The notes under the pieces are model-generated. The model searched no databases. It was not told the origin of the DNA and worked only from the letters and a program-made list of their open reading frames with translations. DNA of 64,000 nucleotides from Paenibacillus apiarius (GTDB lineage Bacteria; Bacillota; Bacilli; Paenibacillales; Paenibacillaceae): contig NZ_JAFFHZ010000001.1 in NCBI RefSeq assembly GCF_017052585.1, positions 1,364,001 to 1,428,000 of the forward strand, written 5' to 3'. Positions 20,298 to 40,083 of the stretch are shown piece by piece (position 1 is the first letter of the stretch; the number at the start of each line of letters is the position of its first letter). The position numbers and the translations under genes were made by a program.

Positions 20298-20918
20298 TTA
20301 TTCAAGCATGATATCTTCTTCTATCCACGCGAGATAGCCATCCAGAAACGTTTCTGTTTTTGGAATGAAACCTTGTCCGAAATGATAGTCTGGATCCAAA
20401 GTCGTCATATATATATTTCCTTTGTACGACTGGCGATCGACGCAAATAATCGCTTCTCCCAGTTCATTGACAAGGATCGGCTCCGCCCTTGCGCCGCCTT
20501 CCAGCCGAAATACGCCGTGATAGTGCCACTTTGCATCATCGACCGCAATCTTTTGAAATAACGGATGTTCAGCATCAACCGGATATAACGGCAAATCTGC
20601 GCCTTGATTCACCCACCAGTAAAAATTAGTCGGGTAAAACTTCCAATTGACAGGAGAAAGCCACGGTTTCTCGATCTCCCCGAAGGTGATAAGATGTCCT
20701 CCCTGATTCAAGTATTGGCGGAATTGCTCCGAATGCCGGCACAGCATATCCTGATTCAAGCGGGTAGGCACAATCACGTAATCGTACTGCGGCAGTTCGG
20801 TTCGATGCAGATCTAACATGTAAATCCTATCGGTAAACCGCTGGCGGTACTTTCCGTCTTTTCTCGTAAAAAAATAATGCTGGTAGCTGACACCGCCGTA
20901 TAATATACCTGTCTTCAT
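20298..20918 (-). CDS. Amidotransferase-fold (ThuA-like) protein, last gene of importer operon
   Basis: 206 residues, unrecognised at family level but with the flavodoxin-like layout of class I amidotransferase relatives: YDYVIVPTRLNQDML, a helix, then YLNQGGHLITFGEIEKPWL. The usual catalytic cysteine at the nucleophile elbow is not seen, so it may bind rather than hydrolyse. It shares with the neighbouring 211-residue protein the ordered motifs VP-x-N/D, PWL, HPLF and VDR, so the pair are distant paralogues. Its ATG overlaps the stop of that gene (ATGA). Last gene before the terminator. A ligand-processing or binding role tied to the ABC importer is inference only. Confidence 0.75.
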   Translation of the reverse strand: MKTGILYGGVSYQHYFFTRKDGKYRQRFTDRIYMLDLHRTELPQYDYVIVPTRLNQDMLCRHSEQFRQYLNQGGHLITFGEIEKPWLSPVNWKFYPTNFYWWVNQGADLPLYPVDAEHPLFQKIAVDDAKWHYHGVFRLEGGARAEPILVNELGEAIICVDRQSYKGNIYMTTLDPDYHFGQGFIPKTETFLDGYLAWIEEDIMLE

Positions 20919-21550
20919 CGTCTTAACTCCTCATACTCTCTATCGATCCAAGCCAACAACTGCAGCCCCATTCTTCGAGCCGTTGTCGTGTCGGACAATC
21001 CGTATGCCAACAGATCGGTGCCTGCACCTGCTACAATCGTCCCGTTGGTCGTGTGTCGATCCACATAAACAACCGTCTGGCCGGCATTATCCCATAGCGC
21101 AATCTCCGCATGTGCAGGCGCTTCGAAGTAGCCCCGTGAGAAGAAGCCTTTTACACCACGGCGATAATTCAGATCGTACTCCGTTACGCCTCGAAAGAGC
21201 GGATGCTCATCATGGGCAAGTATGGTCCGCGCGTTGATGTCTAGCGAGCTTCGAATCCATAAGCCATTGCCGGGCAGCCATGGCAAAAATATTTGGGCAA
21301 AGGAAACGACAATTCGTCCCTGTTCCAGAAACTGCGCGATACAATCACGATGTTGATGCAAAAATTCCTCATCTATATTGTTAGGCACAACCATCGCACC
21401 GTATGGCGCCAGTCTATCCATCGTCATATCATACAAAAACATGCGCTCTAACCGATTCTCGTACAATTCATGCCGATACACTCGCGAGGAACTGTCCGAA
21501 TAGGAATCTAAGTAAGCAATCTTTATGGGCATCGTCATGGCGCTATACAT
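20915..21550 (-). CDS. Amidotransferase-fold (ThuA-like) protein, paralogue
   Basis: 211 residues: IKIAYLDSYSDSSSR at the start, then YGAMVVPNNIDEEFL, FLEQGRIVVSFAQIFLPWL, HPLFRGVTEYDL and VVYVDRHTTNGTI, in the same order as in the downstream gene. No nucleophile cysteine is visible. The start is not settled: GGGAGG lies only three bases before the ATG at 21550 but 15 before the ATG at 21538. It follows the ATPase gene by eight bases, so it belongs to the ABC importer operon. Function unknown. Confidence 0.75.
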   Translation of the reverse strand: MYSAMTMPIKIAYLDSYSDSSSRVYRHELYENRLERMFLYDMTMDRLAPYGAMVVPNNIDEEFLHQHRDCIAQFLEQGRIVVSFAQIFLPWLPGNGLWIRSSLDINARTILAHDEHPLFRGVTEYDLNYRRGVKGFFSRGYFEAPAHAEIALWDNAGQTVVYVDRHTTNGTIVAGAGTDLLAYGLSDTTTARRMGLQLLAWIDREYEELRR

Positions 21551-21558
21551 TAACCTCC

Positions 21559-22284
21559 CTAAACAAAGTCATCGTAACAAGCGGCTAATAGTGATTTGGT
21601 ATACGCGTTAGCGGGATGCTGCAATACCTCATCTGTCGTTCCCATCTCAAGCAGCATGCCGTTGTGCATGACAGCGGCACTATCCGCGAAGCCGCGAATC
21701 GTCTCAAGCCGATGCGTAATAAATAAGAAGGACATGTTATGCTCCCGCTTCAAGTCAGACAATAAGCTTAAAATGTCCCGTTCTGTCATCGGATCTAGTG
21801 CCGACGTGATTTCATCGGCAACAAGCAGTTCAGGCTCCAGCGCCAAGGCGCGCGCAATGGCAACACGCTGCTTCTGTCCGCCCGAGCATTCGGCAGGCAG
21901 TCTGTCTAAGAGGTCACGAGGCAGCCGAACTCGCTCCAGCAGTTCCTCGACTTTCCGTTGCGAGGCCAAGCTCGTCCATTTGTTCAACATAAGCGGCTCG
22001 GCAATAATATCTTTGATTTTCCAATATGGATTCAGGGAGCGATCCGGGTTTTGAAATACAATTTGCACTTTCGCCTGCGGCTGTATGGGAGCGCCCTTCC
22101 AAAAAACAGCCCCCTCCGTCGGCTGCTGCAAGCCGACAATCAGCTCGGCCAGCGTCGATTTGCCAGACCCGCTTTCTCCTATCAGCGCAAATACCTCATG
22201 CTCGGAAATCGAGAAGGACACATTCTGAACCGCAAATGGCTTGGACAGCCCAAAACGCTTTGAAATATGCTTCAGCTCGAGCAT
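21559..22284 (-). CDS. ABC importer ATP-binding protein (DppF/NikE/CntF type)
   Basis: 241 residues. Walker A GESGSGKS, Q-loop VFQNPDRSLNP, signature CSGGQKQR, Walker B LLVADEIT, H-loop FITHR. The NPxxSLNP pattern is that of the second ATPase of dipeptide, nickel and opine-metallophore importers. ATG at 22284 with AGGAG eight bases ahead. It pairs with the ATPase domain fused to the permease encoded upstream, giving the usual two distinct ATPases. Confidence 0.92.
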   Translation of the reverse strand: MLELKHISKRFGLSKPFAVQNVSFSISEHEVFALIGESGSGKSTLAELIVGLQQPTEGAVFWKGAPIQPQAKVQIVFQNPDRSLNPYWKIKDIIAEPLMLNKWTSLASQRKVEELLERVRLPRDLLDRLPAECSGGQKQRVAIARALALEPELLVADEITSALDPMTERDILSLLSDLKREHNMSFLFITHRLETIRGFADSAAVMHNGMLLEMGTTDEVLQHPANAYTKSLLAACYDDFV

Positions 22285-22356
22285 CGCTTGCACTCCTTAT
22301 CTCATTCAAATCGTGGTTGTTCAAAAGTCCGCTTTTGATTACGGACTTATATGTCT

Positions 22357-24069
22357 TCACTTTGTCGATGGTATAAGCGCCTGCAGCTCACGACTGTAGC
22401 TCGTTGCAGGCTGAAGCAGCCACTGCTCCGCAGGCGCGTGCTCCAGCAGTTGACCATCTTTGATAATCATCATGTCGTCAGCCACCCGCAGCGCCGCTTG
22501 CAGATCATGTGTGATCAGCAGCAGTGTCATCCCATACTCTCTAACCTTTGTGATGAGCAAATTAAGGATTTCCCGCTTTACGACAGGATCGAGCGCGCCT
22601 GTCGGCTCGTCAGCAATCAGCAGACTTGGCTTATTAATAAGCGCCAGCGCTATTAATGCGCGGCCGAGCATACCTCCGCTTAATTCATGCGGATAGCTGT
22701 CCAGCAATCGCTCAGAAAGCTGCACCTCCCGCAATGCCTGCCCGGCGGCAAGCCGTTTCTCCGATGCAGTGACGCTTGACGCGTCCGCCCCCTGCATCGC
22801 CTCCATAAATTGTTGTCCTACGGTCAATAGCGGATTAAAGCTGAGTCGAGGGTCCTGAACAATAAATGCAGCGTCGACCCAGCGGTTTATACTCTGTTCG
22901 GCAGAGCCGCCATTCGGACCGACACTGCGAATATTTACTGCCCCGCTCATGACATCATCCGGCAGCATGCCGTATATAGCCCGCGCCAAAGTCGTTTTTC
23001 CTGAACCCGATTCGCCAATAATAGCCGTGACGCTTCCTGCAGCGATAGAAAAAGACATCGGCTGCAAAATCATAAGTCCATTGTGCACCACGCTTAAATC
23101 GTGAACCGCAACCGCGTTATCCGCTCCAGCATGAGTCGCAGTACAATGTACAGCACGTTGAGATTGCTCGGCTGCCTTGACACTGGAATGCGTGCCTGGG
23201 ACAGACGCATCCATTTCGCCGGAAGCCAGCAGCAGCTTGACCCTGCTGCTGGGGCTGTAGGAACGCAGCCATCTGTTCCCTTGCTGATGTTCGCCTTCGC
23301 TTAATAGAGCAAGTCCAATCGTTACGAGCAGGAGCGCCAGCATCGGCGGTACAATCGTCCACTGCCAAGCTGTTGTTATCCACGTTTCGGTTTGATGGAA
23401 AGCTTGCTCCAGCATTTTGCCCCAGGTCGGTTGGTTCGGATCGCCAAGACCAAGGAAAGACAAGCTCGCCTCCATCGTTACCGCCTGACGGAACGATAGA
23501 ATGAACTTCGTTCGCAAAAGTGGAACGATAAAGGGCATCAGGTGCTTTCGCAAAATATAGCTTGGCTTTCCATGAAACAACTGTGACGCTTTCACGAATT
23601 CCCGCTCACGCAGCGACAACACGGAGGCTCGAATGAGCCTCATATATCCGGGCCAGGTAAGCAAGCCAAGCGCTACAATCAACTGCCAGACGCCGCCTGA
23701 TGTAAAGGCGGCTACAATAAGCACAAGCAGCAAAGAAGGCAGCACAAGCAGCACATTCGCCAATCCGTTTATCAATGGATCAAGCCTTTTGAAATAACCT
23801 GCCACAAGCCCAAGAACACCGCTTAGCGTGGTGCTAATAATGGCAACGCCCAGCCCGATTAGGAGCGTCGTACGCGCCCCATAACTGAGCTGGCTGAACA
23901 CATCCTGGCCTAGCGCATTGGTGCCGAGCCAATTCACACTCGATGGAGCGAGCAGTCGTTCGCCATCAAGCGCAAAGGGCTCTACACCTGCGAGCAGAGG
24001 CCCTGCAAGAGCTAATGCGACAAAACATGCTACTATAACGCTGCCTGCTTTTTTTGATCGGTTCATCAT
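22357..24069 (-). CDS. Fused ABC importer permease and ATPase (DppC-DppD type)
   Basis: 570 residues joining two proteins that are normally separate. Residues about 1-265 are a DppC/NikC-type permease with six membrane segments and the EAA-like loop (VKASQLFHGKPSYILRKHLMPFIVP, then MEASLSFLGLG). A linker of about 50 residues (265-315) leads into an ATPase domain: Walker A GESGSGKTT, Q-loop VQDPRLSFNP, signature LSGGMLGRA (LSGGM-Q-R more usual), Walker B LLIADEPT and ITHD. The frame is continuous with no sign of a shift. The stop of the upstream permease overlaps its ATG. The fusion fixes the permease-ATPase partnership. Confidence 0.9.
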   Translation of the reverse strand: MMNRSKKAGSVIVACFVALALAGPLLAGVEPFALDGERLLAPSSVNWLGTNALGQDVFSQLSYGARTTLLIGLGVAIISTTLSGVLGLVAGYFKRLDPLINGLANVLLVLPSLLLVLIVAAFTSGGVWQLIVALGLLTWPGYMRLIRASVLSLREREFVKASQLFHGKPSYILRKHLMPFIVPLLRTKFILSFRQAVTMEASLSFLGLGDPNQPTWGKMLEQAFHQTETWITTAWQWTIVPPMLALLLVTIGLALLSEGEHQQGNRWLRSYSPSSRVKLLLASGEMDASVPGTHSSVKAAEQSQRAVHCTATHAGADNAVAVHDLSVVHNGLMILQPMSFSIAAGSVTAIIGESGSGKTTLARAIYGMLPDDVMSGAVNIRSVGPNGGSAEQSINRWVDAAFIVQDPRLSFNPLLTVGQQFMEAMQGADASSVTASEKRLAAGQALREVQLSERLLDSYPHELSGGMLGRALIALALINKPSLLIADEPTGALDPVVKREILNLLITKVREYGMTLLLITHDLQAALRVADDMMIIKDGQLLEHAPAEQWLLQPATSYSRELQALIPSTK

Positions 24070-25055
24070 GCTCCCCCTTGCTTTCCTGTCTGAATTCGAG
24101 GGTCAAGCAGCGGGTATATCCTATCTGCGGCCATGTTGAGCAGCAATACAAAAGCGGTCATCAGCACAAAAAGTCCGTGCAGCAGCGGATAATCCCGCGC
24201 CAAAATCGCTTCCTGCAACAAATTGCCGATGCCCGGGTACGAAAATACCGTTTCTACGAGTACCGATCCGGCCAGCAGCCCGCCAAGCCGGACAACAACC
24301 ATCGTTATAATAGGGAGAATGGCGTTTCGCAGAACGTGTCTATACAAAATAGTGCCGCTGCCCACACCTTTGGCCAATGCAAATTCAATAAACGGCTCGC
24401 GCAGCACCCGAATAGCTTCATTGCGCATCAGTAAATAGATGCTGGCCGTATTCGCCACCGTCAAGGTCACGACAGGCAGAACTGCATGCCAAGACACGTC
24501 TATCGCCAGGTCCCACCAACCATTAGGTGTATAAAAAGGCGTCTCCGCGCCACCGAGAGGAAACCAATCCCATTTCACCGAAAATCCGAGCACGAACAAC
24601 ATCCCTGTCAAAAAATCCGGGATTGTGCTGACACTAATCATGGTGAGAAACCATCCGCGGTCATGATTCCCTGCATGCCGCCATGCAGATAGCAATCCTG
24701 CAGCTATGCCGATCACGATTGACAACACGGTTGCCACGCCAACGATGAGCAGCGTCCACGGGAGACGATTCATAATCACTTCATAGACTGGCATTTTATA
24801 GGTGAACGACTGCCCAAAATCGAAGGTGAATATCCCCTTCACGTAGTCCGCAAGCTGCATCCATGCCGATTCATCGAGATGATAGTAGTCCCTCATCGCT
24901 GCTTTTTGCGCATCCGAGATAAAAACAGGGCCGTCTTCCCCGCCCTCCAAAAAATCAATAGGCCCCCCCGGCAGCAGCCGGGGGAGAACAAAATTCAAAA
25001 GCAGCACAAATAACAACACATATAAATAGGTGACAGTATGCTTACTTCTTCGCAT
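24066..25055 (-). CDS. ABC importer permease (DppB/NikB type)
   Basis: 329 residues with six membrane segments and a soluble loop after the first. The N-terminal part VLPRLLPGGPIDFLEGG and the cytoplasmic loop ALAKGVGSGTILYRHVLRNAILPI are typical of this class. Overlaps the binding-protein gene upstream by 14 bases and the fused gene downstream by four, showing tight coupling. Forms a heterodimer with the permease half of the fused protein. Confidence 0.92.
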   Translation of the reverse strand: MRRSKHTVTYLYVLLFVLLLNFVLPRLLPGGPIDFLEGGEDGPVFISDAQKAAMRDYYHLDESAWMQLADYVKGIFTFDFGQSFTYKMPVYEVIMNRLPWTLLIVGVATVLSIVIGIAAGLLSAWRHAGNHDRGWFLTMISVSTIPDFLTGMLFVLGFSVKWDWFPLGGAETPFYTPNGWWDLAIDVSWHAVLPVVTLTVANTASIYLLMRNEAIRVLREPFIEFALAKGVGSGTILYRHVLRNAILPIITMVVVRLGGLLAGSVLVETVFSYPGIGNLLQEAILARDYPLLHGLFVLMTAFVLLLNMAADRIYPLLDPRIQTGKQGGA

Positions 25056-26661
25056 CGATAAATGCCGCCTTGTTGTCCCATAGCGGTATGCCGTCCGCTA
25101 TACCGCCATAGGTGTTGAACCAACGGTCAAACTCAGCTGCCTTGTAAAGGAAATAAAATGGACGATGATACAAGACGAGCGTCGGCAATTCCTCTGATAA
25201 AACAATTTGCATTTCGCCAACAATCTCTTTTCGTTTCGCTGTATCCAGCTCTTGCAGTTGCTCCTGGGCCAACTGCTGGAACTGTCGATTGTCGAATGAG
25301 CTGCCTCTGGCTGCAAATGAATTGCTTGCTTTTCCTAAAAACCACAGCCGTAAAAAGTCGGGGTCGCCGCTCAGCCCGATATGCCCGGTTAACGCCATAT
25401 CGTATTTGTTCTCACCCATTGCAGAGGTGAACGTCGCCCCATCCACCTGTTGAATGTTCAATTCGATGCCAACCTTTTTCAGCATCTCCTTCATCATTTG
25501 CGCTTCTTTGGAAGTAGAGGAGACTATCAAGCTTAGCTTCAAGTCTTGGCGCACGCCGCTGCCGTCTTTGCGGTAACCAAGCTCGTCGAGCATTTGTTCA
25601 GCTTTGGCCGTGTCATATTCATAGGTCTTAACCTTATCGTTGTACCAAGGCGAATCCGGTGGAATAATCCCGCCGCTGCCCGGAATAGGTGTCCCCCCAA
25701 CAATTTTGCTAGCCATTTCCGTACGATCAAGCGCATATGCCAATGCCTGGCGCAACCGCTTATCCTTTAATTGCGGATGGCTATGGTTAAATACGACGCG
25801 GACCGCACTGCCTGCCGGTTCGCTCTTCATGACTTGAAAGCCTTCCTTCTGAAGTTGCTCCGCTTCCCGATAGTTCAAAGTCGACGCTGCATTAATTTCA
25901 TTCTTCTGCAGGGACAGCACTTTGTTTTTCGTATCCATGTATGCAACATCTTGTACGTTCACGTTTCCCTTGAAATAGCTGCCATTAGCGATGAACAAGT
26001 ATTGCCCCGACTTATCATCATACTGTTTTAGCGTAAATGGACCTGTGCCAACCAGTGCTGACGGATCGCGATAAGCGATCGGATCGCTTACGTTTTCCCA
26101 TACATGCTTCGGAATAATGGGCATAATCCCCACTAGGTCGCTTAAAAATGGAGCATATTTGTTATTCAACTGAAACTCAACCGTGCCGTCTCCCGTTTTG
26201 GACACGGATTTGATTTGGCTAATGTCGCCAGTCCATGGGAACGGGTGTGTCTTGAAGTATTCAAATGTAAACACGACATCATCCGCGGAAAACGCCGTCC
26301 CGTCATGCCACTTCACATCCTGCTCCAGCGTGAACGTATACCGCAATCCATCCTCGGATACCTTCCACGATGCAGCGAGCCATGGAATGACTCCCGTGCC
26401 GTCTTTCCAGGTTAAGGTGTCGAACAAAAAGCTATTGCGCAAATAACCGCCAGGTCCTGACGGCTTGAAAGCAAACGGCGATGGGTAGCCGCTTTCCTGC
26501 CATCCGATTCGGATGGCAGGCTGCTCCTGTGCTGGTACTGTTGAGGATTGCGGAGCCTTTGCATGTTCTGCCGGTGTAGATGTATGCGATGAACTGCATC
26601 CTGCAAGCAAAATGAATGCCATGAATAGTAAAGCTAAGTATGATGTCGTGCGAAATTGCAT
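25042..26661 (-). CDS. Substrate-binding lipoprotein, family 5 (DppA/NikA/CntA type)
   Basis: 539 residues. Lipobox LLAGC with cysteine 22, then the SBP_bac_5 fold: SWKVSEDGLRYTFTLEQDVKWHDGTAFSADDVVFTFE is the family hallmark, and AYALDRTEMA is conserved in the second lobe. ATG at 26661 with AGGAG ten bases ahead; the longer frame to 26784 runs through a Fur-like box and is rejected. First gene of the operon 26661-20298. The family binds peptides, nickel chelates or opine metallophores; the Fur-type boxes point to a metal ligand, but that is inferred. Confidence 0.92.
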   Translation of the reverse strand: MQFRTTSYLALLFMAFILLAGCSSSHTSTPAEHAKAPQSSTVPAQEQPAIRIGWQESGYPSPFAFKPSGPGGYLRNSFLFDTLTWKDGTGVIPWLAASWKVSEDGLRYTFTLEQDVKWHDGTAFSADDVVFTFEYFKTHPFPWTGDISQIKSVSKTGDGTVEFQLNNKYAPFLSDLVGIMPIIPKHVWENVSDPIAYRDPSALVGTGPFTLKQYDDKSGQYLFIANGSYFKGNVNVQDVAYMDTKNKVLSLQKNEINAASTLNYREAEQLQKEGFQVMKSEPAGSAVRVVFNHSHPQLKDKRLRQALAYALDRTEMASKIVGGTPIPGSGGIIPPDSPWYNDKVKTYEYDTAKAEQMLDELGYRKDGSGVRQDLKLSLIVSSTSKEAQMMKEMLKKVGIELNIQQVDGATFTSAMGENKYDMALTGHIGLSGDPDFLRLWFLGKASNSFAARGSSFDNRQFQQLAQEQLQELDTAKRKEIVGEMQIVLSEELPTLVLYHRPFYFLYKAAEFDRWFNTYGGIADGIPLWDNKAAFIDAKK

Positions 26662-26723
26662 GAAAATAACACTCCTTTTTCTCGATTCAAGCGGTAACGT
26701 ACAAAATTTAAGATAAATTAATT

Positions 26724-26742
26724 GAGAATGAAAATCAATATC
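26724..26742. promoter_or_regulatory. Fur-type box ahead of importer operon
   Basis: GAGAATGAAAATCAATATC matches 16 of 19 positions of the classical Fur box GATAATGATAATCATTATC. It lies 63 bases upstream of the binding-protein start. Zur and PerR boxes are related, so the exact metal is open. Confidence 0.6.
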
Positions 26743-26852
26743 AAAAGATGAAGTGATAGTTGGAATAATAGCGGCACAACCCATTTGATTCCGTTTTCAT
26801 ATTAAAATCTAATAGATGTATCAAAAAGAGCGATAGATTTATTGTTATGATT

Positions 26853-26871
26853 GATATTGATAATCAATCTC
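26853..26871. promoter_or_regulatory. Second Fur-type box, next to LysR gene
   Basis: GATATTGATAATCAATCTC matches 16 of 19 positions of the Fur consensus, including the central TGATAATCA. It lies 53 bases before the LysR start codon, in the same divergent gap as the first box. Confidence 0.6.
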
Positions 26872-26923
26872 ATATTTAGTATACTCTCTACTATTCTCAT
26901 TCCCCCTAGGAGGCTGCACACTC

Positions 26924-27829
26924 ATGAAGGTTCTCGATAAAATGGAAACTTTTTTGACGTTGGCTGAATGCGGGTCTTTTTCCGAAACGGCGAAGCGCCT
27001 CTTCTGCTCTCAACCGACGGTAACCAGCCACATTCAGCAGTTGGAGGAGCAATTCGAGGCAACGCTGTTAATGCGCTCGGGAAAATCGGTGCGTTTGACG
27101 CCACAGGGGGAAGTATTGCACGAGTACGCCAAAAAAATGGTCGCCCTATTTGAGGAGGCTTCGCAGAGCATCAAGAACGCGGGTCTTTCGAGCCCTGTGC
27201 TCGCGCTGTATGCCAGCAACTATATGGGGGTCTACGTGCTGCCGGATATTTTGCGGCGGTTTCACCACAGCTATCCACAGCAGCATTTTGAGCTCCATAC
27301 GTATGGTTATACAGATTTGATTGACATGCTTATGGAAGAAAAAATCACTATGGCCTTCCTGCCTATCTATGAGGAAGACAAATATGTCCAGACTCAATAT
27401 GATTCCATTGTGCTGTTTAAAGACGAGTTCGTGCTCGTGCTTCCGCCGGATCATGCTTGGGCGGAGCGAAAGATGCTGTATGCCCGCGATATCGCTCGCA
27501 TAACGCTGCTGCTGCCGCAAAACAGCTATTTGCAGGATTGCATTTTATCTCCTATCTATGAGTTGGGGATTCGGCCAGACACAATCCATATGAGCAGCTT
27601 CGAGGTTATCAAGGAATCCATTAAGGCCGGATTGGGCGTTGCCTTTATCCCCTACTATGCCGTACGCGGCTCACTAGATAAAGGCGAGCTCATAGCGAAG
27701 CCCGTATACCGATTGCGTATCGAACGAAACAACGGATTTATTCACAGGAAGCACAAGCCGCTCACCCAAATCGAGACCGCTTTTTGCGAATGTGCTCAAG
27801 GCACTTTACTGTTGAATGGCAACGCTTAA
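26924..27829 (+). CDS. LysR-family transcriptional regulator
   Basis: 301 residues. N-terminal winged helix (METFLTLAECGSFSETAKRLFCSQPTVTSHIQQLE) and a C-terminal periplasmic-binding-like effector domain of about 200 residues. AGGAGG precedes the ATG. Divergent from the ABC importer operon, which it most likely controls in response to the transported ligand, with a metal regulator as a second layer (two Fur-type boxes between). An FmdE-like gene follows 48 bases downstream. Confidence 0.92.
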   Translation: MKVLDKMETFLTLAECGSFSETAKRLFCSQPTVTSHIQQLEEQFEATLLMRSGKSVRLTPQGEVLHEYAKKMVALFEEASQSIKNAGLSSPVLALYASNYMGVYVLPDILRRFHHSYPQQHFELHTYGYTDLIDMLMEEKITMAFLPIYEEDKYVQTQYDSIVLFKDEFVLVLPPDHAWAERKMLYARDIARITLLLPQNSYLQDCILSPIYELGIRPDTIHMSSFEVIKESIKAGLGVAFIPYYAVRGSLDKGELIAKPVYRLRIERNNGFIHRKHKPLTQIETAFCECAQGTLLLNGNA

Positions 27830-27877: not shown

Positions 27878-28402
27878 ATGTCTGTTATTCGAATTATGGA
27901 CAACAAGGATGTAATTGAAATCAGCTTTGAAGATATTAAAAAATACCATGGCGGACTGGCCCTCATGGCTATCGCTGTTGCTTTCCGCGTGCAGCAAGCC
28001 GCTATACATGAATTGTTCGGCTCGGAACCGCCGCAGCGGAACATGCTCAGCATCCTGTCCGGCCATGCGGGTCCCGGGTTCCGCGATGCGTTCGAATTCG
28101 TTACTCGCGCTGTCACACGCGGGGTTTACAAGGTAAATGTCCATTACCCGGCGGCGCAATACGACCCGCATCGCGCCCAGTCCTACGCCTTTGTCCTCTC
28201 GGCCGGGGAAGGCGCCGCTGTTGAAGTGGTGTTGAAGGACAACTTCCTTCCGCTTGAGTTCTACGACTACTTGGCAAAAGGCCGCAACAAAGCGATGACC
28301 ACACAGGATGTGGAGCAATTTGACAAGCTGAAGCTGGAGCTTTCGCAGCAAGCGTTGGCGTTGCCACAGGAAGAGTTGCTCACTGTGAAGCGGCTCTCGT
28401 AA
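27878..28402 (+). CDS. FmdE-like domain protein
   Basis: 174 residues. It contains KYHGGLALMAIAVAFRVQQAA and, after a short gap, SGHAGPGFRDAFEFVTR, which match in position and pattern the HGH...PG and GPG-x-RDA blocks of proteins related to subunit E of formylmethanofuran dehydrogenase. No C-terminal zinc finger is present, and the first H-G-H is H-G-G here. GGAGG lies eight bases before the ATG at 27878. Co-directional with the LysR gene, so part of the same regulon. Metal binding is plausible for the fold but unproven. Confidence 0.6.
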   Translation: MSVIRIMDNKDVIEISFEDIKKYHGGLALMAIAVAFRVQQAAIHELFGSEPPQRNMLSILSGHAGPGFRDAFEFVTRAVTRGVYKVNVHYPAAQYDPHRAQSYAFVLSAGEGAAVEVVLKDNFLPLEFYDYLAKGRNKAMTTQDVEQFDKLKLELSQQALALPQEELLTVKRLS

Positions 28403-29491: not shown

Positions 29492-29810
29492 GTTATACCC
29501 TCCCCGCACCATTTACCCGAAAACGATATAGGATATAAAAAAGTCTTCTTTCCATCACGATTCACAATTGCTGAAAAAATAACTTTTTTATGTTCATGGT
29601 TTCATTTGCATTTTTCGGATCCCTATCTTAACAGACCGATTCCGTGTGGGTCTAGAGAAACAGTGTTGACCCTTGAAACAACTCTTGAACCGGCAAAAAC
29701 CTGTTGCTTCCGGTTAGAAAAGTTGAGTCTGCTAAGAAAAGTTGCTAGGGGGCAACAACGCCCCATCTAGATAGGATGTGCGCTGGGGAGGACAAGTATA
29801 CCCGAGGTAA
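29492..29810. other. Non-coding gap between CDF gene and tail cluster
   Basis: About 320 bases, no supported gene. Several small hairpins are visible: GGGTC...GACCC (about 29647-29672), ACCGG...CCGGT (about 29691-29716) and GGGGGCAACAACGCCCC (about 29749-29765). The last lies downstream of the amidase gene and may help stop its transcription. No yybP-ykoY manganese riboswitch pattern was found upstream of the CDF gene. Confidence 0.4.
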
Positions 29811-30512
29811 CTAGATAACGTAGGTCTTCAACTGCTGTGCGTCCCATTTGACCTTGCGCCCGCAGCCTGTGGCCAGCTCGCGGACAGGGGCGTACACTTT
29901 GCCGTCAATGAGGTAGCCCGTCATCGCTATGGATGAAGTTGAAGCAGCATTCCCTTGCAGCTCGATGTGAACTTGGCGGACGGGAACGCTGTGCGGTTCG
30001 TTCGGGCGTGCTCCGGCTTCATGCTCCCGCAGACACTGCTCAACGAGCGCCATGAACTGCTGCCACTGCGGCAGCAAGCGGGATGGGCATGCTTTCCCGC
30101 TCCAGTGACGGTGCGGCACGATGCGATCCAGCGGGATACCGTGCTTCTGCGACAGCATCGCAAGCAATTGCGCCGCATTGCGCCACGCCTTGGGCTCGTC
30201 CATCCCGGCGTACATGCATATCTCGACGCCAATGGATAACGCATTGCCGGGACCCGCTCCATCGCCCGCATGCCATCCCTGCTCGTCATCGCGCAAATGC
30301 TGGTACACGGAGCAATCATCCACCGTGTAATGCCAGCTTGTCTGCGCTCCGCCGCTGCCGTTCAAAATATAGCGCGCATGCGCCTCCGCCGTCGCCCCCG
30401 GATCCGTGTTGTCCGTATTATGCACCGTCATGTACATCGGCTTCATCGGACGGCTTGGCTTGTTCGGCCTCCCATCAGGCAGAAGGCGCTGTTTAACCTC
30501 GATGCTCATCAT
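29811..30512 (-). CDS. Endolysin: N-acetylmuramoyl-L-alanine amidase (Amidase_2)
   Basis: 233 residues. Residues about 20-160 form the zinc amidase: His31 in MTVHNTDNT, His134 in PHRHW and Cys142 in GKACPS are the expected zinc ligands, with WHAGDG between. The C-terminal 40 residues (YLIDGKVYAPVRELATGCGRKVKWD) resemble the stalk-type repeat of Paenibacillus wall proteins and may bind the wall. It overlaps the holin gene by 20 bases. Last gene of the tail cluster; its product would open the producer's wall to release particles. Confidence 0.9.
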   Translation of the reverse strand: MMSIEVKQRLLPDGRPNKPSRPMKPMYMTVHNTDNTDPGATAEAHARYILNGSGGAQTSWHYTVDDCSVYQHLRDDEQGWHAGDGAGPGNALSIGVEICMYAGMDEPKAWRNAAQLLAMLSQKHGIPLDRIVPHRHWSGKACPSRLLPQWQQFMALVEQCLREHEAGARPNEPHSVPVRQVHIELQGNAASTSSIAMTGYLIDGKVYAPVRELATGCGRKVKWDAQQLKTYVI

Positions 30513-30915
30513 TCATTCCTCCTTTGCCTTTCAACACCTCGACCGCTTGACGAATTGCCGGCGGCAGCGGCACGCCCATCCGCCCTCCGTTTTCGATAAT
30601 CGATAGCAACTCGTTGGCAATATAGAAAAAAAGAGTCGCGTCTCGCAGCAAATGCTGATCCCCCAATACGGTGTCGATCTGATGCGCAATCGCGACAATC
30701 AAGAAAATAAACACCTTGCGCGCAATGCCGATAAGGCCAACGCTGCTGCGCAGTTTGCCCTCCGCTCCTGCGGCCATCACGCCGGTGGCGTAATCTACTA
30801 CCGCGATAATGACCAATACTTGCAGCAGCAATGGCCATCCGCCGAACAGCAAGGATGCGGTTCCCGCTGCCATCGCTACGCCTGCTTTGAGCAGCACGTC
30901 GATTCGTTCCATCAT
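30493..30915 (-). CDS. Phage-type holin (TcdE/Holin_4 family)
   Basis: 140 residues with three or four hydrophobic segments (AGVAMAAGTASLLFGGWPLLLQVLVIIAVVDY; GIARKVFIFLIVAIAHQID; TLFFYIANELLSII) and a polar tail. The YATGVMAA motif after the second segment is typical of this family. AGGAGG precedes the start. It would make membrane lesions letting the amidase reach the wall. Separated from the fibre gene by two terminator-like hairpins, so it may need read-through or its own promoter. Confidence 0.88.
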   Translation of the reverse strand: MMERIDVLLKAGVAMAAGTASLLFGGWPLLLQVLVIIAVVDYATGVMAAGAEGKLRSSVGLIGIARKVFIFLIVAIAHQIDTVLGDQHLLRDATLFFYIANELLSIIENGGRMGVPLPPAIRQAVEVLKGKGGMNDEHRG

Positions 30916-30940
30916 GTTTCCTCCTTTCGAGAATAAAAGT

Positions 30941-30962
30941 GCCCCCGGCCGCGGCCGAGGGC
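30941..30962 (-). terminator. GC-rich hairpin before holin gene
   Basis: GCCCTCGGCC pairs with GGCCGGGGGC (one mismatch), followed on the minus strand by ACTTTTATT. It sits 25 bases upstream of the holin start, within its leader. Confidence 0.6.
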
Positions 30963-30964
30963 AT

Positions 30965-30993
30965 AAAAATAGCGCCTTCTATTAGGTGGCGCT
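30965..30993 (-). terminator. Terminator after coiled-coil ORF
   Basis: AGCGCC pairs with GGCGCT, followed on the minus strand by ATTTTTAT. It starts right at the stop codon of the preceding small ORF. Confidence 0.75.
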
Positions 30994-31196
30994 TACTCTA
31001 TTTTTTCCAGCATTGCTTGTACGTCGTTTCTCCATCTCAGAGGCACAGCATCGAGCGTTCTAAGTCCCTTTTTAATCAATTCGCAATATACTATGATTCC
31101 ATTTTCGGCTAGGATGTCTTTCAGGAGAGTGTTGTCCTGCTTGAGTTGTCCGTTTTCGGCTTCCAGTTCCCGGACTCTACTTTCTACGGTGTCTAT
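30993..31196 (-). pseudogene. Small coiled-coil protein, start codon apparently lost
   Basis: An open frame of 67 codons reads as a charged coiled coil (VESRVRELEAENGQLKQDN, TLLKDILAENG) followed by VPLRWRNDVQAMLEKIE. Small proteins of this build often sit between tail fibre and holin genes in Paenibacillus phages. A stop codon lies immediately upstream, and the frame holds no ATG, GTG or TTG near a ribosome site at its beginning, so it looks like a truncated remnant or uses an unusual start (ATA or CTG). Confidence 0.4.
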
Positions 31197-31250
31197 ACTT
31201 TAATAGTCGTAATAAAATTTTGCCGTTTCCAGTCCAATTTTAGTACCAGA

Positions 31251-31277
31251 AGCAACCCGGGACGTGATCCGGTTGCT
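31251..31277 (-). terminator. Hairpin after tail fibre gene
   Basis: AGCAACC pairs with GGTTGCT around a 13-base loop; T run is weak (CTTCTGG on the minus strand). Located 52 bases past the fibre stop codon. Confidence 0.4.
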
Positions 31278-31328
31278 TTAGGCAACACCTTTATATCCTA
31301 CGTAAATCCTACGTACATCGTTAAACTC

Positions 31329-32513
31329 CTAATATAAAAATGTGGAACCACTCAAGGTGATACTTGCAACATCATTCGCGCGATACGCGTATGCCTCGCC
31401 CGCAATACGTATTTCTCCGTTTATGTTAAACCCGTCTGGTATAGGTATATTTCTAGAGGCTGGGCTCGAAGTACTCCCATACGAGGCATATTTGACGATA
31501 AATTGGCGAGATTGACTCACTAATTCAACACTGACTATTGACTGTGAACCAGCATCTGGGTTACCCGTCATCAGCGGCAAACGTATGCCTGTATCATCGA
31601 ACGCAACCAAAGCCGCGTGGGCACTGTCACTGGCATAAATTGATGAGTTTCGGTTTCCTGCATCAGCGAAATAGGCATTTTTTGCTGATGCAGGTAGTGT
31701 GAAAAACATAACCGTTTGCGTCCCCTGTCCAGTCTCACCGTATGCACTATTTGACACATCGATCCGACCACCTGTCGATATCTGCCCAATCTTCCCCGCC
31801 AATTGGTCGAACGTATCATTCGCGGATGCCGGGACTCCCTTGGCGTTGATGGCACCCGCGATTTTGTTTTTCGCTTCAACGCCAGAGTGCTTTAGTTCGT
31901 TGTAATCATCGATATTCAACACTTTTTTCCATGGTCCCCACGAATTGTTGTAAAAGTTACGCGTAAACACCCTGTTATCACTTGGATTAAAGACATACCA
32001 AGTTTGGTTTACACCCGCATGTTTGCTTACTTTTACATAACAGGACTGATCATCAGGTCTATTTGCAAAAGTACTAACCTCTGCGTTAGCAGGATTGTAA
32101 TATTCGCCTTCGTCCCTAACGTTGTTCATATCCGTGTTCGCAGGGAGATATATTGCTTTTTTCACAAACGAAGTGTTGACATAGTTTTTTGCATTCGCCT
32201 CCGCTTGATTTGCCTTTGCCTGTGCCCCCGCAGGCGTCTCTGCCCCAATGTACTCCGGCGTTATCTTGGACAGGTCGATGTCTGCGACTTTCTGATCAGC
32301 GTATGACTTAGCCTCGGACAAAGCGGAAGTAACATCCGTTTTCTCTGCAGCATTATTCTGCAGCTCCTCAAGCGCCTCGTACGTCGTGTTCATGTGCCAG
32401 TTCATCCAGGCCGCCGGCGGCTTGTCCATGACGTTGTAGCCTTCGGTGATTTTGGATTCTGGCGGGCGGATGCCCTGCTTCTTCCATTCGGGAAGCGGTT
32501 TTTGAAATGCCAT
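31329..32513 (-). CDS. Tail fibre / receptor-binding protein
   Basis: 394 residues. The first 25 residues (MAFQKPLPEWKKQGIRPP, KITEGY) are the usual baseplate-attachment end. A short helical part (about 50-100) is followed by a pyocin-knob-like region (DEGEYYNPANAEVSTFANRP, NNSWGPWKKVLNIDDY, about 135-215), the KIAGAINAKGVPASANDTFDQL phage fibre segment, and a C-terminal beta-rich domain (about 260-394) that should recognise the target cell. ATG at 32513 with GGAGGG eight bases ahead. No separate fibre chaperone gene is seen. The C-terminal domain would set killing range. Confidence 0.88.
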   Translation of the reverse strand: MAFQKPLPEWKKQGIRPPESKITEGYNVMDKPPAAWMNWHMNTTYEALEELQNNAAEKTDVTSALSEAKSYADQKVADIDLSKITPEYIGAETPAGAQAKANQAEANAKNYVNTSFVKKAIYLPANTDMNNVRDEGEYYNPANAEVSTFANRPDDQSCYVKVSKHAGVNQTWYVFNPSDNRVFTRNFYNNSWGPWKKVLNIDDYNELKHSGVEAKNKIAGAINAKGVPASANDTFDQLAGKIGQISTGGRIDVSNSAYGETGQGTQTVMFFTLPASAKNAYFADAGNRNSSIYASDSAHAALVAFDDTGIRLPLMTGNPDAGSQSIVSVELVSQSRQFIVKYASYGSTSSPASRNIPIPDGFNINGEIRIAGEAYAYRANDVASITLSGSTFLY

Positions 32514-32612
32514 TGTGTAATCCCTCCTCATATATTCGTAACCGCAGCTTGCCATTGGATTGCCACCCTCCCTCCCAATACAGCAAGGATTCCGGTGACA
32601 ACGTAACGGTCA

Positions 32613-32794
32613 GCTGCAAAAATGCAGTTCATTGCAGCGTGGAACTCCACTTTCCATGAATAAGCTGCAAAAGTGCAGTTAAATGACGTCGTTTCGGGGC
32701 AGTTGCCGGTTTTACGCAGATTCAGATGTACTTTTGCATCTCATGGCCCCAATATCGTCCATTTCAGCAAATTCAAATGTACTTTTGCACTTCA
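32613..32794. repeat. Four copies of a short inverted/direct repeat
   Basis: GCTGCAAAAATGCAGTTCATT (split here for length: 32613-32633) and a near copy with GTGCAGTT at 32664-32684 point one way; TTCAGATGTACTTTTGCATC (32721-32740) and TTCAAATGTACTTTTGCAC (32772-32790) point the other way with the complementary TTTTGCA core. The 374-base gap between fibre and baseplate genes holds no coding frame, so these repeats are its main content. They look like a small palindromic or MITE-like element. Confidence 0.6.
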
Positions 32795-32887
32795 CGCAGC
32801 CTAACACCAGCGAGGCTAAACGGCAGGCATAGGTTCCCCAGTCCTGCCTTGCCTAGCCCCAGCCATCATACGCCATTCCCAGCACAC

Positions 32888-33526
32888 CTAGACCGGTATC
32901 GCGTAATCGTTCCCCGGCACGTACATATCCCCGAGCGTGCCGCCCACGGTCATCGCCTCGTCGGCGAGGCCATGCTCGTCTTGCTCCAGTGCGTCGTACG
33001 CCGACGACAACGAGAAGGTGCCGGTCAGCTCGACCTGGCCGACGCGCACCCCGGCGGCGACGAGGCGCTCCACGAGCGAGACGAACTGCGACGGGCTCAA
33101 GCCCACGCCGCTCAGCTTCTCGTACGGCACCTCGCTCACGTGAATCGCCGCCGGCTCGGGGCTGACCGGGTCGTTGTACCGCTCCGACAGGCCGAACTCG
33201 CCCGGCTCCGCGTTCAGGGCCAGCGCCAGCACCTCGATGACCGAATCGAGGTTGCCGCTCGCGTTCATGCGCGCCAGCTTGGAGCGCAGCAGCAGACGGT
33301 ACACCTCGTCCGTCGCCTGGCCGCGCGGCTGCCCGAGATTGCCGCCGATCATGTCGAGGGTCGCTCCCTCCGCCTGTTCGATGCTCTTCCAAGCGGACAT
33401 GCGCTGCACCGTCGCGCCAATCTCATTCAACTGCTGCAGCCATACGTCAGCCAAAATAGAAAAACGGCTGCCTTCCTTCGCGATAACGTCTGGCAGCATG
33501 TCCATCAGATCGTTCAGCTTAAACAT
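32888..33526 (-). CDS. Baseplate wedge / tail protein I-like
   Basis: 212 residues. The N-terminal half has the family core SIEQAEGATLDMIGGNLGQPRGQATDEVYRLLLRSKLAR, the C-terminal half VAAGVRVGQVELTGTFSLSS. It matches the YmfQ/gpI/DUF2612-like proteins that link baseplate wedge to fibre. Overlaps the baseplate J gene by eight bases, in the same order as in PBSX and Mu-like tails. Confidence 0.8.
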   Translation of the reverse strand: MFKLNDLMDMLPDVIAKEGSRFSILADVWLQQLNEIGATVQRMSAWKSIEQAEGATLDMIGGNLGQPRGQATDEVYRLLLRSKLARMNASGNLDSVIEVLALALNAEPGEFGLSERYNDPVSPEPAAIHVSEVPYEKLSGVGLSPSQFVSLVERLVAAGVRVGQVELTGTFSLSSAYDALEQDEHGLADEAMTVGGTLGDMYVPGNDYAIPV

Positions 33527-34703
33527 GAGTCACCGCCACCTTGATCCGCTCCGGCGCCACCCGCGCCACGTGATACAGCGGAATATCCACATTGCCGCTC
33601 ACATATTCGCCATCCGCCAGCTTCACCTTCAAGTCCATCACTTCCTCGACGCCGATCACATTTTGCACCGCCGTCAGCAAACGGCTGTACACGATGCGCG
33701 AGCCTTGCGCCAGCCCCGTGTAATCCTGCTGGTCGGCGCCAATGCCGCCGATATACTGCGCAATCGCCGTCACGATATCGTCCGCGCCGCGCGCCGGGAA
33801 CGTCGGATTGGCCGACACGGCGGCCTCCACATGCACGTCCAGCATCGTCATGCGGCTGAACCGCACCTCATGCTCGCTCCCGCTCACATCGCGCACCTGC
33901 ACGCTTTCCGTGCCGTCCGTGCCAATGCCCGCCGCCTTCTTGTCGAAGATCGCCTTCGCAATCTGCTCCGGCTGCCCGCCGTACACATATGCGCGGATCG
34001 ATTTCGGCGGAATGCCCTCCGCATTCGTATCCATCGTGTTATTTACGCGCACCGAAGCCGACTTCACATCCGGCAGCTGCAACAGCGCCGATGCGATCGC
34101 ATCGATCGTCGCCGCATGGCTGCCATCGCGCGCCGCACGCAAGCGATCGCGGAACTCCACGTCATTTTCGCGCTCGCGACCGTCGATCATGCCGCAGGCA
34201 TTCGTTACGCCCGTCAGCTCCTTCACCGGATTCATCAGCTCCGTGATGGCTCCCGCCGGAACGTTGCCAGAGATACCGGCCACCGCCGCCGTCACATTCA
34301 CCGTGCCGCGGCCCGCATCATCCAGCGTGCACGCCATCGTCGTCGCGAACCAGACGCCCGCCTTCGTGCCAACCTGCAGCCCCGCCTGAACCGTATGACC
34401 CGGCGTCCCGCTCAGTTCGATCGAACCGTGGGCCGGCTGCTCCAGCTTGCGCCGCAGCCCGTAGAACACCGCCAGCGCATCCAGCTGCACGCCGGTCGCA
34501 TATTGAATGTACGACTCGTGATACACCTGCTCCACGTCCTCCCACAGCACCGACAAATGCCACGCGAACACCTGCAGCATCATGCCCAGCGGCGACGTTT
34601 CCGACGTGTTGATATCCTGCCCGAGCCGTTTGCCCAGCTCCGACACCATTTCCTCATAAATATCGTTATACGTTTTGCGCTTCAAACCCGCTTCCGTCAG
34701 CAT
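33519..34703 (-). CDS. Baseplate J-like protein (wedge)
   Basis: 394 residues, normal length. N-terminal TSPLGMMLQVFAWHLSVLWEDVEQVYHESYIQYATGVQLDALA is the classic gpJ/XkdT start. The middle has GTKAGVWFATT and AGISGNVPAGAITEL, then NACGMIDGRERENDVEFRDRL. Several copies form the ring of wedges around the hub. Its start overlaps the gp25-like gene by 38 bases. Confidence 0.93.
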   Translation of the reverse strand: MLTEAGLKRKTYNDIYEEMVSELGKRLGQDINTSETSPLGMMLQVFAWHLSVLWEDVEQVYHESYIQYATGVQLDALAVFYGLRRKLEQPAHGSIELSGTPGHTVQAGLQVGTKAGVWFATTMACTLDDAGRGTVNVTAAVAGISGNVPAGAITELMNPVKELTGVTNACGMIDGRERENDVEFRDRLRAARDGSHAATIDAIASALLQLPDVKSASVRVNNTMDTNAEGIPPKSIRAYVYGGQPEQIAKAIFDKKAAGIGTDGTESVQVRDVSGSEHEVRFSRMTMLDVHVEAAVSANPTFPARGADDIVTAIAQYIGGIGADQQDYTGLAQGSRIVYSRLLTAVQNVIGVEEVMDLKVKLADGEYVSGNVDIPLYHVARVAPERIKVAVTHV

Positions 34704-35043
34704 AATTCAACTCAACCTCCTCTCCATCCGCGCTCATCATGACGAGGCGCATAGACACCGTCCGCGCACGCTCATCCCAGTCAATTTCCAGTTCCTCCAC
34801 CGACTGAATGCGGGGCTCCTCGGCCAGACAACGCATGACCGCCTCCCGGATGCTATCCTCGTCCACCTGCTTGCCCATCATTTGATCATGATCCAACCCC
34901 ATGTCAGGCGCAAAAAAATACTCGCCCAAACGAGTTCCCATCCGTATCCGCACCGACTGCGCCAGCTCTTCGCGCCCGTCAATCCAAGCGATTTGCCCGT
35001 CAGACACCTGAATATCCCCGTCGTTCAAAGCCCAAGCTTTCAT
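34666..35043 (-). CDS. Baseplate gp25/gpW-like (DUF2634) protein
   Basis: 125 residues: AWIDGREELAQSVRIRMGTRLGEYFFAPDMGLDH and IREAVMRCLAEEPRIQSVEELEIDW match the lysozyme-like gp25 wedge family. ATG at 35043 overlaps the stop of the upstream gene (ATGA). In contractile tails this protein starts sheath assembly at the baseplate. Confidence 0.88.
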   Translation of the reverse strand: MKAWALNDGDIQVSDGQIAWIDGREELAQSVRIRMGTRLGEYFFAPDMGLDHDQMMGKQVDEDSIREAVMRCLAEEPRIQSVEELEIDWDERARTVSMRLVMMSADGEEVELNYADGSGFEAQNV

Positions 35044-35312
35044 TCGCCTGCCACCTTTCCCACGATAACGCCCCCGCCGCCATTCGCCTCCGTAAAGACG
35101 ACCAGAACGCGGCTTCCAGCTTCCAAGACAACCTCGGATGCCTGCTGCACAACGGGCAGCTGATAGCGAATCACCCCTGCTTCCCCGTCCAGCTCCACAT
35201 CGGCGTCGGCCGCTCCCATGCGAATTACGGTGCCGAGCTGCGCGCCCGTCATGCCGGACAACCTGTGATCTATCCATGCCTCCAAAGCGCCGACTGCGCG
35301 ATTGGCTCCCAT
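35040..35312 (-). CDS. Short OB-fold-like baseplate/spike protein (DUF2577-like)
   Basis: 90 residues, glycine and valine rich: GAQLGTVIRMGAADADVELDGEAGVIRYQLP and AGSRVLVVFTEANGGGGVIVGKV. The strand pattern and position suggest the small OB-fold protein next to hub and gp25 (XkdR/DUF2577 place). No PAAR protein is present elsewhere in the cluster, so this may be part of the spike. Family call from context more than motif. Confidence 0.65.
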   Translation of the reverse strand: MGANRAVGALEAWIDHRLSGMTGAQLGTVIRMGAADADVELDGEAGVIRYQLPVVQQASEVVLEAGSRVLVVFTEANGGGGVIVGKVAGE

Positions 35313-35383
35313 GGCGTCCCCTCCTTTCCCTCTCTAAAAAACGAACTTGCCCGCAAAACGACCGCGTAATCACTCCGCTGGCC

Positions 35384-36178
35384 TCATTCCTTGACCAGAT
35401 CCACTTCCGTGATGAACTGCTCGCCCGAAATCGTATGCTTGCCCTGCTTCACCTTATACACGCCCTCGAAATCCTCGCTAACGAGCCTAACCTGGGCGCC
35501 CGCATGCAGACGATGATTGAGCAGTGATGTCGCGCGGACTCCCTTCGTCTTCCCCTCTTCAAAGGACTGGGGACTGTCGATCAGCCCGCTCTCCGGGGAC
35601 AGCGCCACAAACGTGCGGCTCGTCGCAACCATATTGGCCGCTTGAAAATACAGCTTGCCCTGCATCGTATACGTGCCCAAGCCGCATGCCGCCGCGGCGC
35701 GCCGAATCGCATTCAACGGATCGCCCTTGACCACGAACCCCTTCGCATAGGTGTGGTCGGCGGGCAGCCGCAGCTCGCCGTGCGGAATCTGGGCCCGGTT
35801 CAACAGGTCCCTAATAATCTCGCTCGCCTTGCTGCCCGGCCGGTACGTATGCACCATGTCATACACTGATACCTTCAAGTCATCCTTCACTTGAATCGTC
35901 GTTACCCGGTCCATCTGCTCCCGCTTCGTGCGCACTTCCACGATGTTGCCCTGCAGCACCGTGCCGAGATCCGTTCCATAACCTGCATTCACGATGACGC
36001 GCATGCCTGTTTTTAGATTGGCGAGCGTATGCTTGGACAGATTATAGAGCTCAACCGTCGATTCATTCGGCTCTTTGTCGTCATCGAAATCGGCCACGAC
36101 CCGGAGCGATAAATCCTCATATGTGAAGCGGTAGCCGCCAATAAGCACTTCGCAATTGCGTTTATACAAATATTCCAT
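35384..36178 (-). CDS. Baseplate hub protein (XkdQ/gpD-like)
   Basis: 264 residues: EDLSLRVVADFDDDKEPNESTVELYNLS, IQVKDDLKVSVYDMVHTYRPGSKASEIIRDLLNRA, ALSPESGLIDSPQ. These are typical of late-control/hub proteins forming the centre of the baseplate. Overlaps the upstream plug gene by 17 bases. Expected as a trimer capping the tube. Confidence 0.85.
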   Translation of the reverse strand: MEYLYKRNCEVLIGGYRFTYEDLSLRVVADFDDDKEPNESTVELYNLSKHTLANLKTGMRVIVNAGYGTDLGTVLQGNIVEVRTKREQMDRVTTIQVKDDLKVSVYDMVHTYRPGSKASEIIRDLLNRAQIPHGELRLPADHTYAKGFVVKGDPLNAIRRAAAACGLGTYTMQGKLYFQAANMVATSRTFVALSPESGLIDSPQSFEEGKTKGVRATSLLNHRLHAGAQVRLVSEDFEGVYKVKQGKHTISGEQFITEVDLVKE

Positions 36179-36482
36179 CGTCTTCTCCCAGATGCACGGA
36201 CACGGACTGACCGAGCGTATCCCAAGTGACGTGCTCTTCCGGATTTTCTCCGTATGGCACGATCAACTCCAGCGGAAAGTCGGGCGTTTCCATGCTCTCG
36301 AACAACGGCACTCCCCACACCAGCTTGACGCCAAGCGCAAGGGGAAGGTCCCCTTCCAGCAAATCAACCGTAAAATAATCATGCCGCGCGTTGTAACGCA
36401 CCTCGAACGTATACGTCCGTTCCCCTAAATCCATGTCGAACGAATAAGGGACAAGCTCCTTGTCAATGACAATGACCGCCAT
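36162..36482 (-). CDS. Baseplate plug / small tail protein
   Basis: 106 residues, acidic, strand-rich: ERTYTFEVRYNARHDYFTVDLLEGD, LALGVKLVWGVPLFES. This pattern (short structural protein giving Y-x-F-x-V-x-YN and G-x-P-L) fits the phage baseplate plug family found just ahead of the hub gene. GGAGG precedes the start. Confidence 0.75.
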   Translation of the reverse strand: MAVIVIDKELVPYSFDMDLGERTYTFEVRYNARHDYFTVDLLEGDLPLALGVKLVWGVPLFESMETPDFPLELIVPYGENPEEHVTWDTLGQSVSVHLGEDDGIFV

Positions 36483-36532
36483 CCATCTTCCTCCTCTCTG
36501 CCAAAAAGGCGCCTTCCTTGTCTCCCGCCGCG

Positions 36533-37303
36533 TCAGGCCACCCGGATATCCATGCCCGCCTTAAGCGTGGCGTAAGAGCTGATATTGTCATTCATGCCCC
36601 GCAACACGTCGACCGGGATACGGAACTTGGCCGCAATCGAGTACCAGGAATCTCCCGGCAGAACCGTATAGGTCCGGTACGCATACTTCAGATTCGGATT
36701 CACCTTCTTCTGCTTCTCCGTCGCATTTTGCCCAATGGACAGCATCATGCCAATCGGCGGCGGCACACTGGGATCCAAGTGAGAATTCCATTCGCGGAGC
36801 TGCCTCACGCCAATGCCGTAGTAGCGGGCAATAGATTCCCATCTCTGTCCCGCTCGCACAATATGCGACCAGGGCTTCGGACGGTATGACGTGTTCCGTT
36901 TGCCCGAACGGACCTTCGGCTTCACCGCCGCTTTGCGCTTCGGAGGAAGCTTCGTATACCGGATCGTCACGACATTAATCTGCTTGAGCGTCAGCGAGAA
37001 GCTCATACCGTTGCCGATCGAGCTGTCATGCGCCGTCCGCAGGCTCGTAATGACGCAGTTCAGCAGCATGTTGCGCCCGGTATATTGCAGCAGCGTGCCC
37101 GCGTTCATCGCCTTCACGAGGCGATGGCGGTAATTCGACGCCTGGGGCCCGAGAATGAGCCCCTCCAGATGCAGGCTGACCGTATCCTTTTGAATGTGAT
37201 CCGTTATCGTGCCGCCCTTTTCAATGTTGTGGCTGCTAACCTGAACCGCGTATTCCGGCTCCTCCGACGTGACGAACAGGTCGATTCCGCCCAAGCGGCT
37301 CAA
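36533..37303 (-). CDS. LysM-containing baseplate protein (XkdP-like)
   Basis: About 256 residues. Residues 1-130 (SRLGGIDLFVTSEEPEYAVQV, LEGLILGPQASNYRHRLVKAMNAGT) are a baseplate hub-associated domain of the DUF6046/Dit-like kind. Two LysM modules follow: HIVRAGQRWESIARYYGI and YTVLPGDSWYSIAAKFRI. It likely sits near the tube tip and touches peptidoglycan. Start unclear: TTG at 37303 or ATT at 37315; there is no ATG, and the frame open to 37432 overlaps the tape measure gene. Confidence 0.82.
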   Translation of the reverse strand: MSRLGGIDLFVTSEEPEYAVQVSSHNIEKGGTITDHIQKDTVSLHLEGLILGPQASNYRHRLVKAMNAGTLLQYTGRNMLLNCVITSLRTAHDSSIGNGMSFSLTLKQINVVTIRYTKLPPKRKAAVKPKVRSGKRNTSYRPKPWSHIVRAGQRWESIARYYGIGVRQLREWNSHLDPSVPPPIGMMLSIGQNATEKQKKVNPNLKYAYRTYTVLPGDSWYSIAAKFRIPVDVLRGMNDNISSYATLKAGMDIRVA

Positions 37304-37310
37304 TTTCGTC

Positions 37311-39083: not shown

Positions 39084-39086
39084 TTC

Positions 39087-39290
39087 TTATTTCCCTCCTT
39101 TCCCGAACATCCACTCCATGGCGGAGGCGGCCTCGCATAGCTCCTCGATGCTCATGGCGTCCGCCTCCGCATACGTAATGCCGCCCCGGCTATTCAACAC
39201 GACATGCCAAAATAATTGCCGGAGCGGATTCGTGGAAATGGAACGTTTATACGATGGATGATTCGGGCTCCAAGGGTGTATCGACCATCC
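39087..39290 (-). CDS. Tail assembly chaperone extension (gpT-like), reached by frameshift
   Basis: A 67-codon frame, in +1 (equivalently -2) register to the chaperone gene, overlaps its 3' end and runs to four bases before the tape measure ATG. It reads STNPLRQLFWHVVLNSRGG, ITYAEADAMSIEELCEAAS, AMEWMFGKGGK, matching in place and style the C-terminal extension of gpGT-type chaperones. No good start codon with ribosome site lies at its beginning, so a programmed frameshift between 39250 and 39290 (candidates: CCC-TTG or CCC-GAA) is the best explanation. Confidence 0.6.
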   Translation of the reverse strand, partial: GWSIHPWSPNHPSYKRSISTNPLRQLFWHVVLNSRGGITYAEADAMSIEELCEAASAMEWMFGKGGK

Positions 39291-39531: not shown

Positions 39532-39562
39532 ATTGATTCACCCTTTCCCAGTCGTATTTTCG

Positions 39563-39967: not shown

Positions 39968-40083
39968 TGCTATCGCACCTTCCTTTTCCTGTACGGATAT
40001 AATTCAATGCATTCCAACAGCTTGGCTTGTCCAAGCCGTATATTATGAATAATGTCGTAAAGTGTCTTCCATACCGCTTCCGG

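Follow-up and report, generated by a model that had tools for sequence, protein, structure and literature searches.

The locus raises the question of what two small related proteins encoded at the end of an ABC importer operon do, and what the importer brings in for them. The window, by which we mean the whole 64,000-nucleotide stretch of Paenibacillus apiarius DNA that was analysed, encodes protein A (P0002; 20915..21550, minus strand, 211 aa) and its paralogue B (P0001; 20298..20918, minus strand, 206 aa), with coordinates, strand and lengths exactly those of the initial annotation. The gene order bears out its claim that the two close an importer operon. Transcription would run leftwards from a substrate-binding lipoprotein (SBP) of the SBP_bac_5 type (25042..26784) through an OppB/NikB-type permease (24066..25055), an OppC/NikC-type permease fused to an ABC ATPase (22357..24069) and an Opp/Nik-type importer ATPase (21559..22293) to A and B as the last two genes. 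The two genes overlap by four nucleotides (ATGA), in which A stops and B starts, so the pair looks translationally coupled, as had been suggested. The true start of the SBP is probably the Met at 26661 rather than the listed 26784, judging from a ribosome-binding site and an LLAGC lipobox. A LysR-type regulator gene (26924..27829, plus strand) is divergent from the operon. Further to the right, a phage-tail-like block (~29800-41100) with baseplate, sheath and amidase-like genes is probably a prophage or tailocin, to judge from the list of open reading frames alone.

A and B contain the motifs VPTRLN/VPNNID, PWL, HPLF and VDR in the same order. The initial annotation had listed these four motifs correctly, but its view that the proteins share little else does not hold: they are 26% identical over 180 residues (BLASTP, E 2e-16), and their family profiles align end to end over 188 columns (probability 99.6, E 2.4e-24). 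Neither protein reaches the cut-off of any Pfam or NCBIfam model, and sequence searches of the PDB gave no convincing relative for A, B or the third protein, C, described below. No signal peptide is seen in A or B, and both are predicted to be cytosolic.

Relatives were sought in plasmids, in the host order and in 84,980 genomes. The genome scan reported 365 relatives and 80 loci were kept, a set weighted towards Alphaproteobacteria by the use of a Rhizobium protein as the first query row. The hosts are soil bacteria (Paenibacillales, Alpha- and Betaproteobacteria) and an archaeon, the haloarchaeon Natribaculum. A lies beside B in all 80 kept loci and is fused to it in 31; 39 fused A/B reading frames, in both orders, were found among all loci examined. 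B is present in 28 of 392 Paenibacillales genomes, each time with its A or as a B-A fusion, and the constant pairing that had been proposed as a check is thus seen both in the kept loci and in every positive genome of the order. One genome (locus L161; G621:C75:280500-300400) has three A-B pairs within ~5 kb, beside two Opp-type importers. In a combined tree A and B form two separate clades (support 0.989), and the A and B distances correlate (mirror-tree r 0.91); as read from the sequences, their history is a single old duplication followed by joint inheritance. Obligate pairing together with natural fusions in both orders makes a physical A-B heterodimer likely, where previously it had been offered only as a possibility.

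Structural modelling was done with a homologous natural A-B fusion rather than with the window's own A and B. The AlphaFold model (pLDDT 80, pTM 0.84) has two domains, and its high pTM suggests a defined packing of A against B. In fold searches of the PDB, the B domain of the fusion gives Z scores of 12 to 14 with GATase1-like proteins, among them 3rht (13.8) and the ThuA-like protein 4jqs (12.7). A is assigned to the same fold through its profile link to B, and the class I glutamine amidotransferase (GATase1) fold is predicted for both proteins. The fold of the B domain is also that of the active class I GATases (PF00117) and of the ThuA and DUF4159 branches. The active enzymes have their nucleophilic Cys in the elbow that follows the fourth strand, whereas no conserved Cys, Ser or Thr occupies the predicted elbow in 49 sequences of B and 48 of A; the residues in these columns are mainly Gly or Glu in B and Asn, Gly or His in A, with Phe/Ala/Gln in the window's A. 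Both the amidotransferase fold and the missing nucleophile had been called from the sequence, and both reappear with the fusion model and the family alignments. PF00117 matches neither protein. B scores 15.2 against DUF4159 (PF13709; cut-off 25.9), which A does not match, while ThuA (PF06283) matches six of 49 B members (best 4.7e-4) and some B members also match DUF4159 weakly. Kinship to the host genome's own GATases was rejected since profile alignment gave no match, placing the relation at the level of fold only. A-B also differs from the GATase superfamily in being an obligate pair tied to importers.

Residue conservation is unequal between the two proteins. B has invariant W101, H132, H134, D175 and H179 and near-invariant N98, W102, H118, W131 and D161 (49 sequences); A has only D60 and H116 invariant and R139 near-invariant (48 sequences). 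This suggests an asymmetric pair with a single functional site. The initial annotation took the loss of the Cys to suggest a binding or structural role; a role purely of this kind finds no support, given the His, Asp and Trp residues that B retains. The lowest model confidence falls on several loops that hold conserved residues, including the most conserved ones, and the geometry of the site is predicted loosely. Low loop confidence is common where a ligand or partner is missing from a model.

Clustering of the gene neighbourhoods reveals a third member, C, as a ~171-aa gene close after B, present in 66 of the 80 loci. In the window it is the open reading frame following the LysR gene (27878..28402, plus strand, 174 aa), and it matches the Achromobacter gene at E 2e-30. 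The three solved FmdE structures are the best matches to the AlphaFold2 model of C (pLDDT 87), with Z scores of 13.3, 11.3 and 11.1; the next, unrelated protein scores 4.0. C thus shares the alpha+beta core fold of the FmdE family (PF02663), although the window protein scores 17.9 bits against a cut-off of 22.9 and 11 of 30 members match, at best with 2.9e-5. Unlike FmdE proteins, C has lost the FHGHxC metal motif except for its invariant first His (H24), with the second Cys absent; it has no zinc finger, and it travels with A-B. Most FmdE genes adjoin metal-ion transporters, and one FmdE structure binds Zn/Ni (PMC2954224). Many Paenibacillales loci have the gene order C-A-B-SBP-permease-permease/ATPase-ATPase, and in the window C lies with the LysR gene on the divergent side. 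Some of the 80 A-B loci have no C or no detected importer.

While A and B are constant, the class of importer varies (Opp, FecBCD, SsuABC, Fbp-like). FecBCD is the commonest type in the 80 loci, which also include Opp types and, in a few cases, SsuABC. The Paenibacillales have mostly Opp-type importers, in which the permease-ATPase fusion is kept across the order, and FecBCD in some loci. The Natribaculum pair (L017:7787-15392) lies between an Fbp-like SBP_bac_8 protein and a 562-aa BPD-type permease; downstream are genes for a transposase and a nitric oxide synthase. That A-B is kept while importers change suggests that the pair follows something else, most simply the ligand. Cupriavidus, Achromobacter and a few Alphaproteobacteria have genes for TonB-dependent receptors within the operon or adjoining it; the receptors are nearest to heme/hemoglobin models, at scores below those cut-offs, and their FRAP/NPNL heme-receptor motifs are mixed. 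The binding proteins of the module fit several ligand classes. Few other genes are operon-linked, which fits micronutrient uptake rather than a catabolic system. In five Paenibacillales loci (L143, L147, L161, L163 and L167; e.g. L163:10366-13981) an FtsE-like ATPase, an FtsX-like permease and a secreted coiled-coil protein adjoin A-B, and four of the five also have a secreted surface protein. In most of these loci the mature form of each of the two secreted proteins is predicted to begin with His (HLTGAF after AYA, HIVNE after ALA), a possible metal ligand.

The regulatory sequences point to iron. At a threshold of three mismatches in 19, the window contains two Fur-consensus sites, both between the SBP and LysR genes; 0.01 are expected, and none of 100 shuffles reaches two. 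The first, GAGAATGAAAATCAATATC (26724..26742, plus strand, 3/19 mismatches), is upstream of the importer-A-B operon, and the second, GATATTGATAATCAATCTC (26853..26871, plus strand, 3/19 mismatches), overlaps the predicted LysR-C promoter (TTGATA-17-TATACT, 26857-26885). Across 37 Paenibacillales loci, scanned with up to four mismatches, 70 sites fall in the 35 kb upstream of module genes and 17 in the 726 kb elsewhere, an 85-fold higher density, and 34 of the 37 loci are positive. The host genome contains 121 palindromes of the Fur type, several perfect ones adjoining FecCD-type importers; the reversed pattern occurs 17 times. At the threshold applied, none of the four betaproteobacterial loci has a Fur box. 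The IRO box recognised by RirA is TGA-(N9)-TCA (PMC6386902). A set of 63 dereplicated alphaproteobacterial loci contains 38 copies of this pattern where shuffles give 4.7 (8-fold), and 31 of the loci have it; enrichment is confined to spacing 9, other spacings being near background. Of all 64 triplets, TGA scores best. Iron control of the module therefore appears to be exerted by a different, unrelated regulator in each of two phyla, and the statistics of the sequences carry these predicted operators as they do the pairing. Zur, NikR, Mnt and Mur-like operators were sought upstream of the module and are at or near background. Riboswitch control was rejected, as Rfam searches of the window and 14 loci found no element consistently upstream; the sole cobalamin riboswitch there precedes methionine synthase. 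Elsewhere in the window Rfam identifies a lysine riboswitch (62474-62663, plus strand) and an epsC RNA element (770-882, minus strand). The pair and its importer operon were part of the picture in the initial annotation, which missed C, the exchange of importers and control by Fur or RirA.

We propose that A-B works in the cytosol, probably together with C, as a factor that takes an imported ferric chelate and frees its iron or passes it on, a reading to which we give an even chance. Under iron starvation Fur, or RirA in the Alphaproteobacteria, would release the importer-A-B promoter and, in the window, the LysR-C promoter as well. The importer would then bring in a ferric siderophore, xenosiderophore or heme-like chelate, which in hosts with an outer membrane would first pass through a TonB receptor. 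In the cytosol the chelate would be handed to the A-B(-C) heterodimer, the invariant His/Asp/Trp set of B may bind either the iron or its ligand, and A-B(-C) would release the iron or pass it on. An SsuABC-type importer is unusual for iron, and its presence in a few loci counts against a ferric chelate as the substrate.

The same residues could serve chemistry on the ligand. Siderophore esterases free iron by breaking down the ligand, and A-B(-C) might likewise act enzymatically on the imported chelator or heme, modifying or cleaving it at the His/Asp site of B, with the iron freed by the breakdown. The invariance of the B residues, the poorly modelled conserved loops, as expected for a site normally filled by a ligand, and the persistence of A-B through changes of importer, which would follow the ligand rather than the transporter, all agree with this; we nonetheless consider it rather doubtful, given that A, B and C belong to no recognised hydrolase or oxygenase family and that no further catabolic gene is clearly operon-linked. 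It is less probable still that A-B acts on no ligand and is instead a regulatory or structural partner of the importer, gating the ATPase or forming an intracellular lid. Proteins with a GATase fold and no nucleophile can be scaffolds, an idea already contained in the initial annotation, and the genetic linkage to importers is tight; but at least three unrelated importer architectures are found beside A-B, C adds a third soluble partner, and a scaffold has no use for the invariant polar set of B.

The least probable reading, and in our view a very unlikely one, is a module for nickel, cobalt, zinc, copper or a metal cofactor in which iron control is secondary. It draws on the Opp/Nik type of the window importer, on the Zn/Ni found in an FmdE structure (PMC2954224), and on the secreted proteins with a predicted N-terminal His that follow A-B in most of the five Paenibacillales loci mentioned above. 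Against it, the Fur and IRO boxes stand out among the operators from Zur-, NikR- and Mnt-type boxes, and the scores with the NikA and CntA models fall far short of the cut-offs. The staphylopine Cnt and nickel Nik importers of Opp type are of the same superfamily as the window's importer, which lies far below the cut-offs of the Nik and NCBIfam CntA/CntC/CntD/CntF models (CntA 142.7 vs 800 bits); no opine-synthesis genes were recognised in the module operons.

Returning to the release of iron from an imported chelate, such intracellular release is to our knowledge understood in few bacterial systems, and a widespread, iron-controlled module of three unnamed proteins is a testable candidate for a new route. 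If this is correct, hundreds of proteins now called hypothetical could be annotated as iron-uptake proteins. A, B and C are without a name in the model libraries searched, we found no description of the A-B-C module in the literature searched, and none of the three has a Pfam match to the ferric-siderophore reductase domains FhuF and SIP. Tentatively, and with the balance of probability against it, A-B-C may represent a new class of cytosolic iron-release factor, a GATase-fold heterodimer with an FmdE-fold partner that would dismantle ferric chelates with no flavin or Fe-S reductase and no esterase and that is plugged into several unrelated importers in bacteria and an archaeon. Among the closest known systems are the Fur- or RirA-regulated ABC uptake systems for ferric siderophores or heme, which likewise have Fur or IRO operators, FecBCD importers and, in some operons, a TonB receptor. 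They carry a reductase, an esterase or a heme-degrading enzyme where this module carries A-B and C, and unlike them the module has an exchangeable class of importer. The frame of iron-chelate ABC uptake is thus known, and its inside half is new.
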